Positions 13,454 to 22,130 of a stretch of DNA of 45,916 nucleotides are shown piece by piece. Under the pieces are notes generated by a model. It ran no database searches, was not told the DNA's origin, and saw only the letters and a program-made list of their open reading frames with translations. Origin of the DNA: Pseudomonadota bacterium (GTDB lineage Bacteria; Desulfobacterota; QYQD01). Made by a program: the position numbers and the translations under genes. Every line of letters starts with the position of its first letter. Position 1 is the first letter of the stretch. Location: the NCBI GenBank assembly GCA_011046395.1, contig DSAQ01000053.1, positions 1-45,916 of the forward strand. The letters are read 5' to 3'.

Positions 13454-15145
13454 TCAATCTGCTACCGTTGTTCGGGCCACTTCTTCTATTGTGGTAACTC
13501 CTTCGAGTATCTTGGTTAACCCGCTCTGACGGAGCGTTTTCGTGCCCAAACGTATAGTCTCTTTCTTAATCTCCATGGCCGAGGCCCCCACCAGAACCAT
13601 TTCTTTCAATTCTTCATACATAGGCATAACCTCATAGAGGGCAATCCGTCCCCGATAACCACTCTGATTGCAATTAAGGCAGCCCTTGCCCTTGTAGCAG
13701 ATAATCTCTCCGTCAGACTCCTGTTGTAACCCCATATTTCGTAAGACCTCGCTAGGAATAGAGACTTCCTCCTTACAATCCGGACAAATCTTTCGTACTA
13801 AACGCTGAGCCAGGATAAGATTGACAGAAGATGACACCAAAAATGGCTCTACGCCCATATTGAGCAGACGGTTAATCGTAGAAGGAGCATCATTGGTATG
13901 AAGCGTAGAAAGGACCAGATGCCCGGTCAGGGCAGCCTTGACTCCAATCTCTGCCGTCTCAAAATCTCTAATCTCACCAACCATAATTATGTCTGGATCC
14001 TGCCTCAAGAATGACCGTAAGGCAGCCGCAAAGGTCAAACCTATATCATCATGGATTTGTACCTGGTTTATGCCCATTAGGTTGAATTCCACAGGGTCTT
14101 CCGCAGTCGAAATATTCTCGGTCACCTTATTTAACTCGGCCAGTGCCGAATAAAGGGTGGTGGTCTTCCCGCTCCCGGTCGGTCCGGTAACCAGGACCAT
14201 ACCATAGGGCTTGTGGATAGCCTCCATAAAATCATCCAGGGCCTTTTCCTCAAAACCCAGCCTGGTCATATCCAGTTGGAGATTAGACTTGTCGAGGAGC
14301 CGTAAGACTACTTTTTCACCGAATAGGGTGGGCAGCACCGATACCCGGAAATCCATCTCCTTACCCTTCCCTACGATTAGCTTTATACGCCCGTCCTGAG
14401 GCAGCCTCCTCTCCGCAATATCCAGTTTGGACATAATCTTAATTCGCGAGATTATCGCGTTCTTCAGTCGCAAAGGTGGGTTCATTATCTCATATAAGAC
14501 GCCATCGATTCTGAACCTGACCCGAAAGACCTTTTCATACGGTTCTACATGGATATCGCTGGCCTGCTTTTTAATAGCGTCAGCCAGAATAAAGTTAACC
14601 AGCTTAACAACCGGCGCCTCCGTGGCTGCTGTAGCCAGGACTGAGGCATCGAGCTCTTCCTCATCACCGGCATAGTCCATCCCTTCGTCTTTAAATCCCT
14701 CCATCACATCGCTCAGGGAAGCAGACATATCATAAAAACGATCAATGGCCTTTTTGATCGCCAGGTCAGTGGCTAACTGAACTACCACGTTTGTACCGGT
14801 AAAAAACTTTATGTCATCTATGGCCGAAATGTTGGAGGGATCAGCTATGGCCACGGTCAAAACCGAGCCGACTTTCTTTAGCGGGATAACATATTTCTGG
14901 ACAATACGGGGGGGGATAAGCCTGATAACCTCCTCGGGGATATCTATAGCGGAAGGATCCACCACGGAAACCCCAAATTGTCTGCTCAAAAAACTGAGCA
15001 GGGCATTTTCAGCAAGAATGCCCATTTTAACAAGATGATAACCAAGAGTCCCCCCGTGGAGCCTTTGTTCGTTCAAGACCCTTTTCAGTTGTTCCACGGT
15101 TATCAACTTTTCTCTAACTAATAATTCGCCGAGACGGGTTGACAT
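13454..15145 (-). CDS. pilB: Type IV pilus assembly ATPase PilB (GspE/PulE family)
   Basis: Walker A GPTGSGKTTTLY, VQIHDDIGLTFAAALRSFLRQDPDIIMVGEIRD, tetracysteine zinc region CPDC...CLNC. Confidence 0.94.
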   Translation of the reverse strand: MSTRLGELLVREKLITVEQLKRVLNEQRLHGGTLGYHLVKMGILAENALLSFLSRQFGVSVVDPSAIDIPEEVIRLIPPRIVQKYVIPLKKVGSVLTVAIADPSNISAIDDIKFFTGTNVVVQLATDLAIKKAIDRFYDMSASLSDVMEGFKDEGMDYAGDEEELDASVLATAATEAPVVKLVNFILADAIKKQASDIHVEPYEKVFRVRFRIDGVLYEIMNPPLRLKNAIISRIKIMSKLDIAERRLPQDGRIKLIVGKGKEMDFRVSVLPTLFGEKVVLRLLDKSNLQLDMTRLGFEEKALDDFMEAIHKPYGMVLVTGPTGSGKTTTLYSALAELNKVTENISTAEDPVEFNLMGINQVQIHDDIGLTFAAALRSFLRQDPDIIMVGEIRDFETAEIGVKAALTGHLVLSTLHTNDAPSTINRLLNMGVEPFLVSSSVNLILAQRLVRKICPDCKEEVSIPSEVLRNMGLQQESDGEIICYKGKGCLNCNQSGYRGRIALYEVMPMYEELKEMVLVGASAMEIKKETIRLGTKTLRQSGLTKILEGVTTIEEVARTTVAD

Positions 15146-15289
15146 ACATATCCACCTAATTTATATCCTGATCGGCATCTCCGGGCAAACCCTTGAACAC
15201 GCCCTGGCGCATCTACGACCGGCTTAGGTTGCCTTGTCACATTCGTTTGATAAAACACGCCTTTCAGCCGATAATATTGTTAGCAGTCA

Positions 15290-15430
15290 GCTTTGATGAC
15301 TTCGTAAGAAGTAAGATGTTACCGCAGAGATCGCTGAGAACGCCGAGATAATATATTGAATAGTTTATATTTTTTCTCTGCGGGCTCTGCGTGCTCAGCG
15401 GTGAAAAGGCTTTTTTACGAAATCATCAGC
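15290..15430. repeat. Nested composite inverted repeat upstream of pilB
   Basis: Outer arms CTTTGATGACTTCGTAA / TTACGAAATCATCAG (15291-15307 / 15415-15429). Inner arms ACCGCAGAGATCGCTGAGAACGCCGAGA / TCTCTGCGGGCTCTGCGTGCTCAGCGGT (15321-15348 / 15375-15402). Confidence 0.8.
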
Positions 15431-15477
15431 CCTAAGCATGCGCAAAATCAGCGCAAAGCCGAAGGCTGAATGCACAG

Positions 15478-15638
15478 TATCCGTTCACCGTTCACCGTTC
15501 ACCGAAAAAGACGTTTTCGTGTTTTTCACGGACAACGGTGGCCGAATAACGGAAATTTTGACCAAGGCAACCGTGTTGCCGTGACAACGGTGAACTGATA
15601 ACGGTGAACGGATACAACGATTGTTTCCGGACGGAAAC
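15478..15638. repeat. GTTCACC/GGTGAAC repeat block plus GTTTCCG-ga-CGGAAAC hairpin
   Basis: TATCCGTTCACCGTT (15478-15492) perfectly inverted at 15600-15614; 7-bp tandem cgttcac x3 at 15482-15502; GTTTCCG/CGGAAAC at 15623-15638. Confidence 0.85.
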
Positions 15639-15646
15639 CAGGCGAC

Positions 15647-17596
15647 ATGGAAGAACTGGCCCCTAATAACATAGAAGTCTTTTATGCACTTCCCGGAGTG
15701 GATTTCCTGGCATTTCTCCCGGAAGAGGAACTCTTCCATTTAGCAAAACGGTTCAAAAGGCTCCAGGCCAGAAAAGGTGAGACAATCTGCCGGGAAGGAG
15801 ATCCGGGAGATTCACTTTTCATAATCAAGTCCGGCATGGTTGGCGTTTACGTAAGGAAGGACGAGCAGGATAACCTTATTGCCCAATTACACCGGGGAGA
15901 TTTCTTCGGTGAACGGGCCATTCTCACCGGGGAACCAAGGATGGCTACAGTCAAAGCAGCCCTTGACGTCGAACTTTTTGAACTTAAGAAAGCAGATTTT
16001 GAGGAACTACTGTACAAACATCCATCGGTTGCTCTGCACATCAGCCGCGTTATATCTTCCAGGTTCAGTAAGGTTGGAGGGCTTATTACTCCGCTGCTCA
16101 CCCCTTGTTTTTATAGTGTCATCGGTTCTCATGCCGGCCTTGGTTGCTCCACTTTCACTGCTATGCTGGCGGTATCCGTCACCCGTGAAACAGGGGGAAA
16201 AGTCCTGGTTATAGACTTGGAAGCCTCCTGTGGACAGGTCTTACATATCTTGGGCGGGGAACAGATAGACTGCCCGGACAAACGATTAATTGAAGACTTT
16301 TCTCCGGAAACCAGGGCTAAGCTAAGGCAATCCTGGTACAAAAGTCCCAACGGTGTCACTATCTTCCAGTTGCCGCAAACGAGTGATCGACAATTTGTTG
16401 CGGAAATCAGGTCGCATCTATCCTCTATCATGGAAGTATTGAAAAATAATTTTGCATTTGTCTTTTTCGATCTCCACCCTGTGATCAATACGGTGAGTAA
16501 AAGGGTCTTGAGGCTCTCTGACTGCATTCTCTTTCTTAGCCCGACCCTTGCGGAAGATATGGCCGATGTCCGGAAAAAGCTCCGTCAGATTCAGAATATC
16601 ACCGATTCTACGTCAGCGCGGGTCAAGATCGGCACAAGCCATACAAGAGGAGACACAGGTCTTCACCGCGCTGAAATAAAGGCCCGTCTGAACCTGGCCG
16701 AGGTTCCGGAGATATGGCAATATAAGGAGGAAGAAAAAAATAGAACTGCGCTGAGAAGACTGGCGCGCGAAATTTGCAAAAGACGAGTCGGGGTAGCGCT
16801 CGGGGCCGGAGGCGCACGGGGATGGACACATCTGGGCGTTCTGAAAGCGCTGGAAGAAAGGGGCATCCCCATAGATATGATGGCCGGATGCAGCATCGGG
16901 GCATTTGTAGCCGCATTATACGGGAAGACCGGTTCGGCAAAAGAGGCTATAAAACTGGCCTTGTCCTATTTCTCCACCACTCGCCAGGTAAGAAAAAATA
17001 TATACGACTACACACTGCTGGGCGGTGGAGTTTTAAAGGGAAATCGCATCCTCTCCGTACTCGAAGAGATGTTAGAGGGTGCAGATTTTCTTGACCTATC
17101 GATCCCGGTGAGTATTATTGCCGTTGACATGGCCACCGGTCAGGAGGTTATTATGGAGCGGGGGTCGGTGAGCAAGGCCGTGAGGGCCAGTATATCCAGC
17201 CCGGGCATGTTCAATCCATTTAATATGAATGGACAGTGGCTTAGCGATGGGGCGCTTCTCAATCCGTTGCCCGTGGATGTACTTGTCAATAAAGGCGCCG
17301 ACTTTGTATTAGCTTCGGTAGTAGAAAGGCGTACCCGCGAGCACTGGCCTGAAAATAGCGGGCCTTCTATCTTAGGCGTACTCGCCCGTTCCTTCTCCAT
17401 AATGTTTTCCCATGCGGCACGGGAAAGCATTAATAAATCTGACATCGTTATTTATCCTGATGTCGAAGGCTACCGGTGGGGAGATTTCCATATGGGAAAG
17501 GAATTAATACGCAGGGGAGAAGAGGCCTGCCTTAAAAAGATCGAAGAGATTGAGAAATTAATAAGCGGAGAACTACCAGCAGTCGGCAGTCGATAG
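15647..17596 (+). CDS. Three-domain protein: cyclic-nucleotide-binding domain, TadZ/CpaE-like (SIMIBI) domain with atypical P-loop, patatin-like phospholipase
   Basis: cNMP: GETICREGDPGDSLFIIKSGMVGVY...GDFFGERAILTGEPRMATVKA. Middle: VIGSHAGLGCSTFTAMLAVSV...KVLVIDLEASCGQVLHILGG. Patatin: GAGGARGWTHLGVLKALEERG, GCSIGA, DGALLNPLPV. Confidence 0.9.
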   Translation: MEELAPNNIEVFYALPGVDFLAFLPEEELFHLAKRFKRLQARKGETICREGDPGDSLFIIKSGMVGVYVRKDEQDNLIAQLHRGDFFGERAILTGEPRMATVKAALDVELFELKKADFEELLYKHPSVALHISRVISSRFSKVGGLITPLLTPCFYSVIGSHAGLGCSTFTAMLAVSVTRETGGKVLVIDLEASCGQVLHILGGEQIDCPDKRLIEDFSPETRAKLRQSWYKSPNGVTIFQLPQTSDRQFVAEIRSHLSSIMEVLKNNFAFVFFDLHPVINTVSKRVLRLSDCILFLSPTLAEDMADVRKKLRQIQNITDSTSARVKIGTSHTRGDTGLHRAEIKARLNLAEVPEIWQYKEEEKNRTALRRLAREICKRRVGVALGAGGARGWTHLGVLKALEERGIPIDMMAGCSIGAFVAALYGKTGSAKEAIKLALSYFSTTRQVRKNIYDYTLLGGGVLKGNRILSVLEEMLEGADFLDLSIPVSIIAVDMATGQEVIMERGSVSKAVRASISSPGMFNPFNMNGQWLSDGALLNPLPVDVLVNKGADFVLASVVERRTREHWPENSGPSILGVLARSFSIMFSHAARESINKSDIVIYPDVEGYRWGDFHMGKELIRRGEEACLKKIEEIEKLISGELPAVGSR

Positions 17597-17705
17597 TCGG
17601 CAGTCAGGGACCGTCAGTTCGCCGCGGCGAACGAAAGGTACGAACGAATCGAACAACTCGAACGAATTGATAGCTGATAGCTGAAGGCTCATAGGATCAC
17701 CGGAC

Positions 17706-19496
17706 ATGCAAGACACAATTAACCATTTACTTGAGCAGGCCATATCCAAATTCCCGGAAAGTGTTGCGCTGCAGGAAAGGCATCATACCGGGTGGACAAC
17801 CCTGTCCTACAGCGCACTGGGAAAAACTATTGCCGAGTTAGGAACTGGCCTTATCTCCCTGGGTGTAAGACCGGGGGAAAACATAGGCCTTTTCATAAAT
17901 AAAGGCTGCAACTGGCTCATCAGCGACTTTGCTATCCTGGGCAGCGGCGGGGTAGATGTCCCGCGCGGTAATGACCTGGCCCTGGACGAGCTCACCTATA
18001 TAGCCAACCACGCAGAGGTCAAGATCGCTATCACGGATATGTCCCCGGACACAATCCCAATCCTGAAAAAGGAAGCCCCAACCATTGGATACATCATCTA
18101 CTCAGGAGATAAAACGCCCCCCGAAGTAAAAGGTCTCATCACCTGGGAAGAGGTAAGGCTTAAGGGAAAAGAACTGTTATCCAACGGCGATAAGACATTT
18201 TTTGAGCGGGCTAACACGGCCAGAGAAAACGATCTGGCCACTATTGTCTATACCTCAGGCACGACCGGGCGGCCTAAAGGGGTTATGCTCACACATGGGA
18301 ACATAGCTAAAAACGTTGGTTCCGTCCTCAAGTGCATACCGGTATATCCAGGCGAGCGCTTTTTGTCCCTCCTCCCGCCTTACCACATGTTTGAAAGGAT
18401 AATCGAATATGTCGCCCTTTCAAACGGGGCCACGCTTATTTTCAGTGACCCCCACCACTTTCGTAAGGATCTGTCTGCGCAACAGCCAAATTTCATAGCC
18501 GGTGTGCCCAGGCTGTGGGAGATATTTTATCAGGGGGTAATGGACAGATTAAAAAAGGAAAAATATTATAAGCTGATCAGCTTATTACTTACGGCCAGCA
18601 AAAACTTCATAAAATCCAGGCGGTTCATGTACCTTCCACTCCACCTTCTGGCTGACCGGCTGATATATAAAACCGTGCGAAACAACCTGGGCGGCGAGTT
18701 AAGGATAGCGGTGAGCGGAGGAGGAAGCCTGCCGATCCATCTCGATGATTTTTTCGAAATGATAGGAGTAACCCTTCTCAATGGCTACGGGCTGACGGAA
18801 ACCTCACCAGTCCTCACCATAAGACGGCCGGAAGCCAACATTAAGGGCAGCGCGGGAAGACCGATACCCGAAACAGAGATAAAAATACTGACCGAAACTG
18901 AGGAACCCGTCCCGCCCGGCAAGGCCGGGATTATCTGGGTAAAGGGGCCTCAGGTTATGCAGGGATACTTTAAGGACAAGGAGGCCACGGATAAGGTACT
19001 CAAAAATGGCTGGCTGAACACCGGCGATCTCGGCATGCTAACCCCGCAAGGGGATCTCATCATCACCGGCCGGGCCAAGGATACTATCGTCCTTTTGAGC
19101 GGTGAAAACGTGGAACCGGAACCCATAGAAACAAGCCTGGCCTTAAGCCCGTTCATATCCCAGGCCATGCTCGTCGGACAGGACCGAAAATACCCTGGAG
19201 CACTTATAGTGCCACATATACAAGTTATCAAGGATTATGCCCATGAACATAATATACCCTATAGTGATTCTAACCAATTGGTCCAGCATCCTGAAATTAT
19301 CCAGCTTATCAAAAATGAGATGGATCGACTCCACAATAAAAAAGAAAGCGCCAAGCCATGGGCAAAGATTATCAGGTTTAGGCTAATCCCTGAAGAATGG
19401 ACTACACAAAGCGGCCTTTTGACCTTTACCTTAAAAAAGAAAAGGACGGCCATCGCCGCAAATTTTCAAGAAGAGATAGAAGACCTCTACCGGTAA
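17706..19496 (+). CDS. AMP-forming long-chain acyl-CoA synthetase
   Basis: YTSGTTGRPKGVMLTHGN, LNGYGLTETSPVLT, GWLNTGDLGMLTPQGDLIITGRAKD. Confidence 0.92.
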   Translation: MQDTINHLLEQAISKFPESVALQERHHTGWTTLSYSALGKTIAELGTGLISLGVRPGENIGLFINKGCNWLISDFAILGSGGVDVPRGNDLALDELTYIANHAEVKIAITDMSPDTIPILKKEAPTIGYIIYSGDKTPPEVKGLITWEEVRLKGKELLSNGDKTFFERANTARENDLATIVYTSGTTGRPKGVMLTHGNIAKNVGSVLKCIPVYPGERFLSLLPPYHMFERIIEYVALSNGATLIFSDPHHFRKDLSAQQPNFIAGVPRLWEIFYQGVMDRLKKEKYYKLISLLLTASKNFIKSRRFMYLPLHLLADRLIYKTVRNNLGGELRIAVSGGGSLPIHLDDFFEMIGVTLLNGYGLTETSPVLTIRRPEANIKGSAGRPIPETEIKILTETEEPVPPGKAGIIWVKGPQVMQGYFKDKEATDKVLKNGWLNTGDLGMLTPQGDLIITGRAKDTIVLLSGENVEPEPIETSLALSPFISQAMLVGQDRKYPGALIVPHIQVIKDYAHEHNIPYSDSNQLVQHPEIIQLIKNEMDRLHNKKESAKPWAKIIRFRLIPEEWTTQSGLLTFTLKKKRTAIAANFQEEIEDLYR

Positions 19497-19533
19497 GGTA
19501 GCAAAATCACGACAGCGGAGGCTTTTTACTTAC

Positions 19534-19794
19534 ATGGGCAGACACAGACATGAATTTGTGAATACATTTGATGAAGGCCAGATAGCCTTTGGCTTAAGTC
19601 GGGAACTGGATGAAAAGTCCCTCATTGCGTACCTGCAAAAATTTACGGATGACGAGCTTATGCATCTTCTGGTGAAACGACTAACTGACGCAGAGATCGA
19701 GGATATAGTAAATTTTGTCACCAAAATACTCAGAAAGCACCTCGCTGAAGAAGAATATCATAAATATTTTCTGAAAGACGAAAGACATCACTAA
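19534..19794 (+). CDS. Small helical protein of unknown function
   Basis: 86 aa ORF immediately downstream of and co-directional with the acyl-CoA synthetase. Confidence 0.65.
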   Translation: MGRHRHEFVNTFDEGQIAFGLSRELDEKSLIAYLQKFTDDELMHLLVKRLTDAEIEDIVNFVTKILRKHLAEEEYHKYFLKDERHH

Positions 19795-20059
19795 AAAGGA
19801 TTCGCGCCGGCTTGCACAATTTGCCGAACCAGACTTGGCCTCCTACCAATAAAGATGCCAATCCCGATGTTTTCTTCGGCCAAACCGTCTCAAAATTCTC
19901 CCTACCCATACCATTTCATCTTGCAATCGTACCCATTCCTGATATAGCATTGAATAATACATTTATACTGATACTGGGCCGATAAATTTCCAAATAACAG
20001 CTCAGCTTGCGCGGTTCAGTTCAATTGAATTTGAGGGGGCGGGAAAGGGAGGAAATAGA

Positions 20060-20563
20060 ATGGAAGAGAAAAAAAGGAACTATTATCTGTATGCGATAGG
20101 GATTCTCATTTTACTGCTTGTCGCAGTGTATATATGGAAAACCGCCGCTGTCAGAAATACAGAAAAGAGGTTGACGGAACATTATCAAAAGGTCATCACG
20201 AGCAGGACAGAGGGGCTTCTCCGCATGACGGCTATTCCCTTTAGCTGGGCCGTCAGGAAAGAGATGATCAGGGAAAATTATGATCAGATAAACGAGTATC
20301 TGATTCGGTTTGTTAAAGAGCCGATGGTCAAACAGATACTCGTTGTAAAGTCTGACGGCATCGTTGCGGTCTCGACCGACAAGAAGCTGGAGGGGATGTC
20401 CTTTTCGTCCCTTTATCCAACTCAGACCCTAAACCAAGATGAGATTTCGGCAACTTTCGCAGAAGACGGCAATATAGTTGTGGTTGCCCCGATCATGGGG
20501 CTTAACGCAAGTCTCGGGTTTATCTATATGATTTATATGCCAAAAAAAATCTCCAGGGAGTAG
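20060..20563 (+). CDS. Single-TM protein with extracytoplasmic Cache-like sensor domain and no output domain
   Basis: N-terminal TM (YLYAIGILILLLVAVYIWK), then VKQILVVKSDGIVAVSTDKKLEGMSF typical of Cache folds; strong RBS gggaggaaatag. Confidence 0.7.
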   Translation: MEEKKRNYYLYAIGILILLLVAVYIWKTAAVRNTEKRLTEHYQKVITSRTEGLLRMTAIPFSWAVRKEMIRENYDQINEYLIRFVKEPMVKQILVVKSDGIVAVSTDKKLEGMSFSSLYPTQTLNQDEISATFAEDGNIVVVAPIMGLNASLGFIYMIYMPKKISRE

Positions 20564-20652
20564 ATATTGCCGCAAAAAGGAGGGAGGTGGATGGGGGAGG
20601 ATTTTCAGAGCAGATAAAATGTCATATAATATATAATTTTTAGGAGGATACG

Positions 20653-21243
20653 ATGTTAAAAAGAAAGGATATCAACAGGATTTTGGTATTAATGGTAGTT
20701 TTATCCTTTGCACTTCTCAGTGGATGTGCAAAGCCACCGACGGAAGAGATTACGAAGGCTGAAACGGCTGTAGCAGAGGCTAAGCAGAAAGAAGCAGACC
20801 TTTATGTGCAGGATGTTTTTGCAAAAGCAGAAGAGTCTCTGAAAAAGGCCAAAGATCTTGTTACTGCAAAGAAGTATAAAGAGGCAAAAGAAATTGCCGA
20901 AGAGACAGCCAGGATTGCCCAGCAGTCCGTTTCAATGGTTGAAGCCAATAAAGCCAAGATGAAGGAAGAGGCGGAACAGATGGTTAAAGATATTCAGGGA
21001 GCGATAGCTGAATTAAAAACCTCCGTTGCAATGGCTATCAAGAAAAAGGCTCAGATCAATCGGGAAGAGATACAGGGCATGATAGGCAAGTGGGAGATAG
21101 ATATGGTGAATATAAAAGACCAGATACAGACCGGCAAGATACGTCAGGCATATGACCCGTTATCATCAATAAAGGAACAGGTAAAATCGCAAGCAGAAGG
21201 CATTGCCGCTGCATTAGAACCAGAAACAGCAGACAAAAAATAA
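20653..21243 (+). CDS. Ala/Lys/Glu-rich helical lipoprotein (DUF4398-like)
   Basis: Lipobox LLSGCAK and long helical repeats; RBS taggagg. Confidence 0.78.
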   Translation: MLKRKDINRILVLMVVLSFALLSGCAKPPTEEITKAETAVAEAKQKEADLYVQDVFAKAEESLKKAKDLVTAKKYKEAKEIAEETARIAQQSVSMVEANKAKMKEEAEQMVKDIQGAIAELKTSVAMAIKKKAQINREEIQGMIGKWEIDMVNIKDQIQTGKIRQAYDPLSSIKEQVKSQAEGIAAALEPETADKK

Positions 21244-21422
21244 CAGGCAGGAGGGGGGGATTAAAGAGGGCGCCTCAATGGTTGAGGAAGGGCTACTGTT
21301 GTAAAAGAGAAGGCAGAGGAACTTACTGAAGAAGGTTCATGAGCGGGTAGCAGAACTCGGTGGCCGGGTGTATGATTTGAGTTCGAAAGTCATAAATACT
21401 ATGGATGACACATCCGACACCC

Positions 21423-21554
21423 GGCTTCGACAATGAAGCTCAAGCATTGTGGGATGATCCTGATTTAATTGAGATTCCTGTAAAAACCAGTGATGAACCA
21501 AGATTTTTGATAATCGGAAAGATTGCAGGAAAGCACTGGTCAGGAGTTACTTAA
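21423..21554 (+). pseudogene. Truncated BrnT-like toxin remnant
   Basis: Frame at 21423 reads GFDNEAQALWDDPDLIEIPVKTSDEPRFLIIGKIAGKHWSGVT*, the core of a BrnT-type toxin without N-terminal start or C-terminal R.IS.RR region. Confidence 0.7.
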
Positions 21555-21700
21555 GAAATCGTAGTCAATCCCATTGAATTAAAGTCTCTATCAAAAGAGA
21601 GGGCCGGCAGGTTCTTTAGTTCGCCTGAAATGAGAATATATGAAAGGGCATCCACATACGAAATTTTCCTATCTTTTCCCAAAAGATTGAACAAGGCGAT
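21551..21700 (-). pseudogene. Truncated PIN-domain (VapC-like) toxin remnant, C-terminal part only
   Basis: Minus frame reads ALFNLLGKDRKISYVDALSYILISGELKNLPALSFDRDFNSMGLTTIS*, matching the PIN C-terminus (sxxDalsf...aLtfDrdF). No N-terminal acidic part upstream. Confidence 0.65.
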
Positions 21701-21731
21701 GGCCTGATGGCAATGGTTGGAGAGTGTGCAT

Positions 21732-22130
21732 ATGTCACCGAAGAAGACACAAACAGAGGGCGACAAGCAGGACCAGATCATTGCTGAAGCGCGCCGCGAC
21801 CGAGAGCGTCGGCAGAAGACCTATCGGGAGCGAGCCCTCAAGATTTTCCCGTGGATTTGCGCGCGGTGCGGGCGTGAATTCATGGGCAAGAGACTTCGTG
21901 AGCTGACGGTCCATCATAAGGACCACAACCACGATAACAATCCGCCTGATGGCAGCAACTGGGAGCTACTGTGTCTCTATTGTCATGACAATGAGCACTC
22001 ACGCTATTTGGATGCAGAATGGTATGACGGTCCAACGCCGGGAGGCGAGCCGGAACCACCTTCGACTTACAGGTCGTTCGCTAATCTCGCTGCCTTGCTG
22101 AAGGACAAGAACCTGAAGGACAAAAAGTAA
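21732..22130 (+). CDS. YajD-like HNH nuclease family protein
   Basis: CARCGREF...LTVHHKDHNHDNNPPDGSNWELLCLYCHDNEHSR. ATG at 21732 (MSPKKTQ) preferred over 21717. Confidence 0.88.
   Translation: MSPKKTQTEGDKQDQIIAEARRDRERRQKTYRERALKIFPWICARCGREFMGKRLRELTVHHKDHNHDNNPPDGSNWELLCLYCHDNEHSRYLDAEWYDGPTPGGEPEPPSTYRSFANLAALLKDKNLKDKK

Follow-up and report, generated by a model that had tools for sequence, protein, structure and literature searches.

Members of the neuropathy target esterase (NTE) family, including PNPLA6/7, Nte1 and bacterial NTE-type proteins, carry cyclic-nucleotide-binding domains, a P-loop-like segment (NTE_Ploop, PF24179) and a patatin domain, and NTE-type proteins are relevant to human neurodegeneration. 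No role for the P-loop-like segment between the cyclic nucleotide (cNMP) domains and the lipase was found in the literature searched. TadZ and CpaE are known from pilus loci, where TadZ has been linked to the placement of the Tad system (PMC11300603), and CpaE, which in Liberibacter carries the deviant motif KGGVGSS, has been described as needed to localise the motor CpaF (PMC8513845). The TadZ of E. rectale was reported to show ATPase activity though both conserved lysines are lost, a lysine in an adjacent helix compensating for them (PMC10482377, on mycobacterial MinD homologues). Here we describe a gene in a 45,916-nucleotide stretch of a Desulfobacterota genome (contig DSAQ01000053.1, the whole of which is called the window below), which encodes a 649-amino-acid protein that is most likely, judging from its domain matches, a phospholipase whose middle domain resembles TadZ/CpaE.

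The gene (15647..17596, + strand) encodes a cyclic-nucleotide-binding domain (amino acids 40-123, 15764..16015; PF00027, 5.2e-25; six-ortholog alignment), a TadZ/CpaE-like SIMIBI domain (amino acids 144-376, 16076..16774; AAA_31, 7e-5) and a patatin phospholipase domain (amino acids 384-546, 16796..17284; PF01734, 3e-26). The domain scan thus agrees with the initial annotation, made from the sequence alone, which had predicted cNMP-binding, ParA/MinD-superfamily and patatin domains in one chain, and the three + strand open reading frames (ORFs) that it had listed (649, 596 and 86 amino acids) are all present. Within a sample of 59 genomes, the genome itself included, three congeners encode the protein at full length (90-94% identity). 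Searching 395 genomes of the phylum with a profile of the middle domain led to the identification of two more three-domain proteins, in G159 (L103, 43% identity) and G386 (L104, 41%), which belong to two other families. No further three-domain protein was detected in 17 and 85 genomes of the G159 and G386 classes, respectively; the architecture is therefore rare and scattered in our sample. At the level of sequence, the three-domain fusion is real, conserved and rare.

The middle domain matched AAA_31 just under the curated Pfam cut-off in the 649-amino-acid protein and above it in ortholog L103 (32.1 vs 27 bits). With a profile built from the middle domains of six orthologs, E-values were about 1e-7 to 1e-15 for CpaE-type proteins, as against 1.7e-5 for the ParA of the same genome. 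Similarly, in HHalign a CpaE set reached 99.6% over 194 columns, compared with 97% for the ParA/MinD-type proteins of this genome and <1% for four unrelated proteins. The top PDB match of the profile was 3ea0, a ParA-family ATPase (6.5e-4, profile positions 13-207). A CpaF-like ORF is present at 26 of the 31 loci of the CpaE-type matches, and the Walker A lysine is absent from all but one of these 31 proteins. In the tree the six middle domains formed a single clade (1.000), the exact position of which among CpaE and ParA proteins was not resolved. According to these comparisons, the assignment of the middle domain as a SIMIBI (ParA/MinD) ATPase-like domain of CpaE type is well supported, in line with the TadZ/CpaE likeness first proposed for it. 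No further CpaE-like protein was detected in this genome at E<=0.01. As a separate observation, CpaE-like and CpaF-like regions share one open frame at L080 and L088 (654 and 665 amino acids), which are apparent TadZ-TadA fusions, and L080 is the sole CpaE match that retains the Walker A lysine.

The P-loop of the middle domain is degenerate (SHAGLGCST, amino acids 161-169, 16127..16153), with Cys167 (codon TGC) at the Walker A lysine position, as had been noticed initially, and His162 at the signature lysine position. Among the orthologs, all members of the genus have Cys at the Walker A position, while L103 has Thr there and L104 has Arg. The initial annotation had concluded from the missing lysine that the domain serves localisation and not ATP hydrolysis, which is an unsafe inference: since the E. 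rectale TadZ without both lysines is reported to hydrolyse ATP, their loss does not exclude ATP use, and the absence of ATP use cannot be deduced from these residues. By analogy with TadZ and CpaE, a positioning role of the middle domain is a fair inference. We also noted that the A' region of this protein reads EASC (window 16222-16236), as against DEPR in all three congeners, with several neighbouring codons changed.

The patatin motifs are intact, as originally noted for GCSIGA and DGA, including the oxyanion region GAGGARG, the nucleophile S416 in GCSIGA and D534 in DGA; S416 and D534 are invariant in the six orthologs. The best NCBIfam match of the protein was RssA (2.8e-43), which lies below the curated equivalog cut-off (148 vs 272 bits), and the best patatin in PDB was PlpD (5fqu, 6e-33). 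In a midpoint-rooted patatin tree of 41 rows, with bacterial members only, the three-domain patatins formed a clade (97/88) that is sister to a stand-alone patatin of G008 (100/99), among stand-alone RssA-like forms. The protein thus resembles RssA/PlpD-type patatins in tree position and top matches, and differs from them in its two extra N-terminal domains and its score under the RssA cut-off. Of the patatins that are not part of the fusion, the G008 protein (L008, a 279-amino-acid frame) comes closest (48% identity); unlike the fusion protein, it has neither a cNMP domain nor a middle domain, and a nearby gene encodes a FeeM-type N-acyl amino acid synthase.

Within the phosphate-binding cassette of the N-terminal domain, residues G88-E89 and R98 are invariant in the alignment of the six orthologs. 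A single class III cyclase domain scored above its cut-off in the genome; it has FTDI and KTVGD motifs, with TPR repeats C-terminal to it, and is plausibly a candidate source of the ligand. Given the conserved phosphate-binding residues and this cyclase, gating of the protein by a cyclic nucleotide appears plausible.

The domain identities, the conserved architecture, the intact patatin residues, the conserved cNMP-contact residues and the absence of both P-loop lysines are observed. Starting from these, we propose that the protein is probably a single-chain phospholipase, soluble or peripheral, in which the C-terminal RssA/PlpD-like half would deacylate phospholipids or lysophospholipids, while the cNMP-binding and TadZ/CpaE-like domains would form a regulatory half. 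The middle domain would most likely act as a dimerising, positioning element and might retain ATP binding despite the missing canonical lysines; binding of a cyclic nucleotide would then change the activity or the location of the enzyme. We give about an even chance to this scheme, a phospholipase that is positioned and shifted by a cyclic nucleotide through its regulatory half.

Several points weigh against it. AlphaFold2, run with two sequences of 94% identity, yielded no structure (pLDDT 29.5 for the whole protein, 37.9 for the middle domain). An allosteric switch on catalysis by the cNMP domain is uncertain by analogy, because human NTE can reportedly be targeted to the endoplasmic reticulum without its cNMP-binding domains, which are reported to affect the distribution in the reticulum and the localisation to lipid droplets (PMC9319352). 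Furthermore, the less constrained middle domain, with P-loop residues varying among orthologs, may be only a spacer. In that case, it would be a CpaE-like domain that has decayed into an inert linker and is retained only for folding or spacing, and the protein simply a cNMP-binding patatin, as the loss of both P-loop lysines and the Cys/Thr/Arg variation over three families would suggest. Within the genus, purifying selection acts on each of the three domains (ratio of nonsynonymous to synonymous substitutions, dN/dS, about 0.1-0.35); the ratio is about 0.1-0.2 for the cNMP domain and the patatin and highest, at about 0.3, for the middle domain. However, three elements do not vary among the three families at a domain identity of 28-36%, namely the GxGxS frame of the P-loop, the A' residue Asp190 and the LRLSD segment. 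A lysine-less Walker A motif is normal in CpaE, and activity in the absence of the lysines is reported for TadZ; we consider the inert linker unlikely.

The neighbouring genes were, together with the middle domain, the basis of a wider proposal in the initial annotation, namely a spatially targeted, second-messenger-gated module in which the 649-amino-acid protein deacylates lipids and its neighbours take part in fatty-acid reactivation. The next gene (17706..19496, + strand) indeed encodes a long-chain acyl-CoA synthetase of 596 amino acids, which has an AMP-binding domain with its C-terminal lid (PF00501, 3.5e-84; AMP-binding_C_3, PF23562, 2.5e-12), and the third gene (19534..19794, + strand) encodes a conserved protein of 86 amino acids without any Pfam or NCBIfam family. 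All three genes run in one direction, and their synteny extends to G001 and G004 and, as far as its contig reaches, to G002; the synthetase gene is likely co-transcribed with the 649-amino-acid gene. Within the genus, the pairing holds. Beyond it, neither neighbour gene is present near L103 (mid-contig on 8.2 kb) or L104, and the synthetase had no match at 1e-100 outside the genus in the sampled genomes. The 86-amino-acid protein, thought to be an orphan, has relatives in eight other genomes (G009, G019, G023, G036, G045, G050, G055, G056; about 42-52% identity for intact copies), in other contexts, and around the intact copies BLAST detected neither this patatin nor this synthetase. Because the neighbours are absent near L103 and L104 and the small-protein family occurs with other neighbours, the deacylation and reactivation module finds no support outside the genus, and we regard it as improbable; a pairing that is not conserved in relatives was the outcome which the initial annotation itself had named as refuting. 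All three genes are also undetected in G003, which would fit a module, but the G003 contig ends at this site, 225 bases past pilB; a natural deletion in G003 was thus discarded as a candidate, the absence not being judgeable. For the phospholipase scheme, the co-directional synthetase could re-activate freed fatty acids in this genus alone, a lineage-specific and conjectural step.

The small-protein family (L055-L061) has the approximate consensus HSHxFVE..GxxxFGL.R..DE...YLQKFSDD...HLxEEEYHxxFLK and is found in several families of the phylum with varied neighbourhoods; the relative in G050 (L051 / L062, G050:C141:6908-7147) contains four in-frame stops and is pseudogene-like. Both distant orthologs have a gene for a DUF885 protein in their vicinity (L103:6422-8149, L104:1993-3663), on the opposite strand and directed away. 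A PEP-CTERM/exosortase-associated acyltransferase is encoded near L103, which together with the FeeM-type synthase near L008 makes a weakly recurring acyl theme.

On the other side, the divergent neighbour is a pilus operon, as had been noted, with pilB (13454..15145, - strand), pilC and a histidine kinase in the ORF list; it is type IVa and not Tad. A functional link to this pilus was considered and rejected, as the pilB/pilC adjacency is syntenic only in the genus and BLAST detected none of these genes close to the distant orthologs.

Several other features were observed in the window. Between the 86-amino-acid and HNH genes, a membrane-anchored 167-amino-acid protein and a DUF4398-like lipoprotein are encoded (20060-21243), neither of which had a BLAST match in the G001 and G004 regions compared, making this a variable spot. 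An apparent C-terminal remnant of a PIN-domain (VapC-like) protein lies at 21551-21781 (- strand); in G004, the stretch between the 86-amino-acid and HNH genes contains a PIN gene that is intact, together with a small partner gene (L042:9924-10594). The gaps at 15480-15620 and 17580-17700 contain short degenerate repeats (GTTCACCG, AACGGTGAAC, CGGCAGTC and GAACGAA types) which differ among congeners. No structured RNA reached the Rfam gathering score in 15140-21800, and no plasmid record had a single place spanning 80% of the query.

Compared with TadZ/CpaE, the middle domain is homologous over 194 columns and shares the P-loop without lysine that is typical of both; in contrast, TadZ/CpaE proteins have a receiver-like N-terminal region and a CpaF/Tad locus, while in the 649-amino-acid protein the cNMP-binding domain stands in place of the receiver-like region, no CpaF adjoins, and the domain is fused between cNMP-binding and patatin domains. 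If the assignment is true, this would be a rare non-pilus use of a pilus-locator domain.

The comparison with NTE is closest in plan. That the protein is a true bacterial NTE with a less degenerate NTE_Ploop is very improbable: the domain order is that of the NTE-type proteins of the phylum (cNMP domains, NTE_Ploop and patatin in G039, G225 and G148) and the best NTE_Ploop alignment falls on the equivalent strand-helix-strand segment of the middle domain, but a search of this genome for NTE_Ploop gave no hit even at E<=1, HHalign gave non-significant values of 26% over only 41 columns (3-sequence NTE set) and 5.7% (10-sequence set), and the patatin joins stand-alone RssA-like forms, with NTE patatins apart at 100/100 in the same midpoint-rooted tree without eukaryotic NTE. 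NTE membership was thus rejected by the PF24179 search, by both NTE profiles and by the patatin tree. Apart from this, an NTE-type gene on a plasmid of Rhizobium sp. RCAM05350 (L111) is annotated as two coding sequences (cNMP-binding and patatin), suggesting a frameshift or a split.

As in NTE/PNPLA6, the cNMP-binding domain is N-terminal to the patatin, and both have the Ser-Asp dyad motifs of patatins. The 649-amino-acid protein differs from NTE in having one cNMP domain, a TadZ/CpaE match in place of NTE_Ploop and a patatin that does not belong to the NTE clade. The protein appears to be an NTE-like phospholipase that was put together separately, and independent assembly of the NTE-like plan is the simplest reading of these profile and tree results. 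The fuller proposal, that this plan was assembled at least twice and that the second version is a phospholipase placed by a module of the TadZ/CpaE pilus-locator type and tuned by cyclic nucleotides, is tentative, possible but on the doubtful side. Since the same plan occurs here with a recognisable TadZ/CpaE domain, the hypothesis that the corresponding segment of NTE is a dimerising or positioning module would become testable in a smaller protein.

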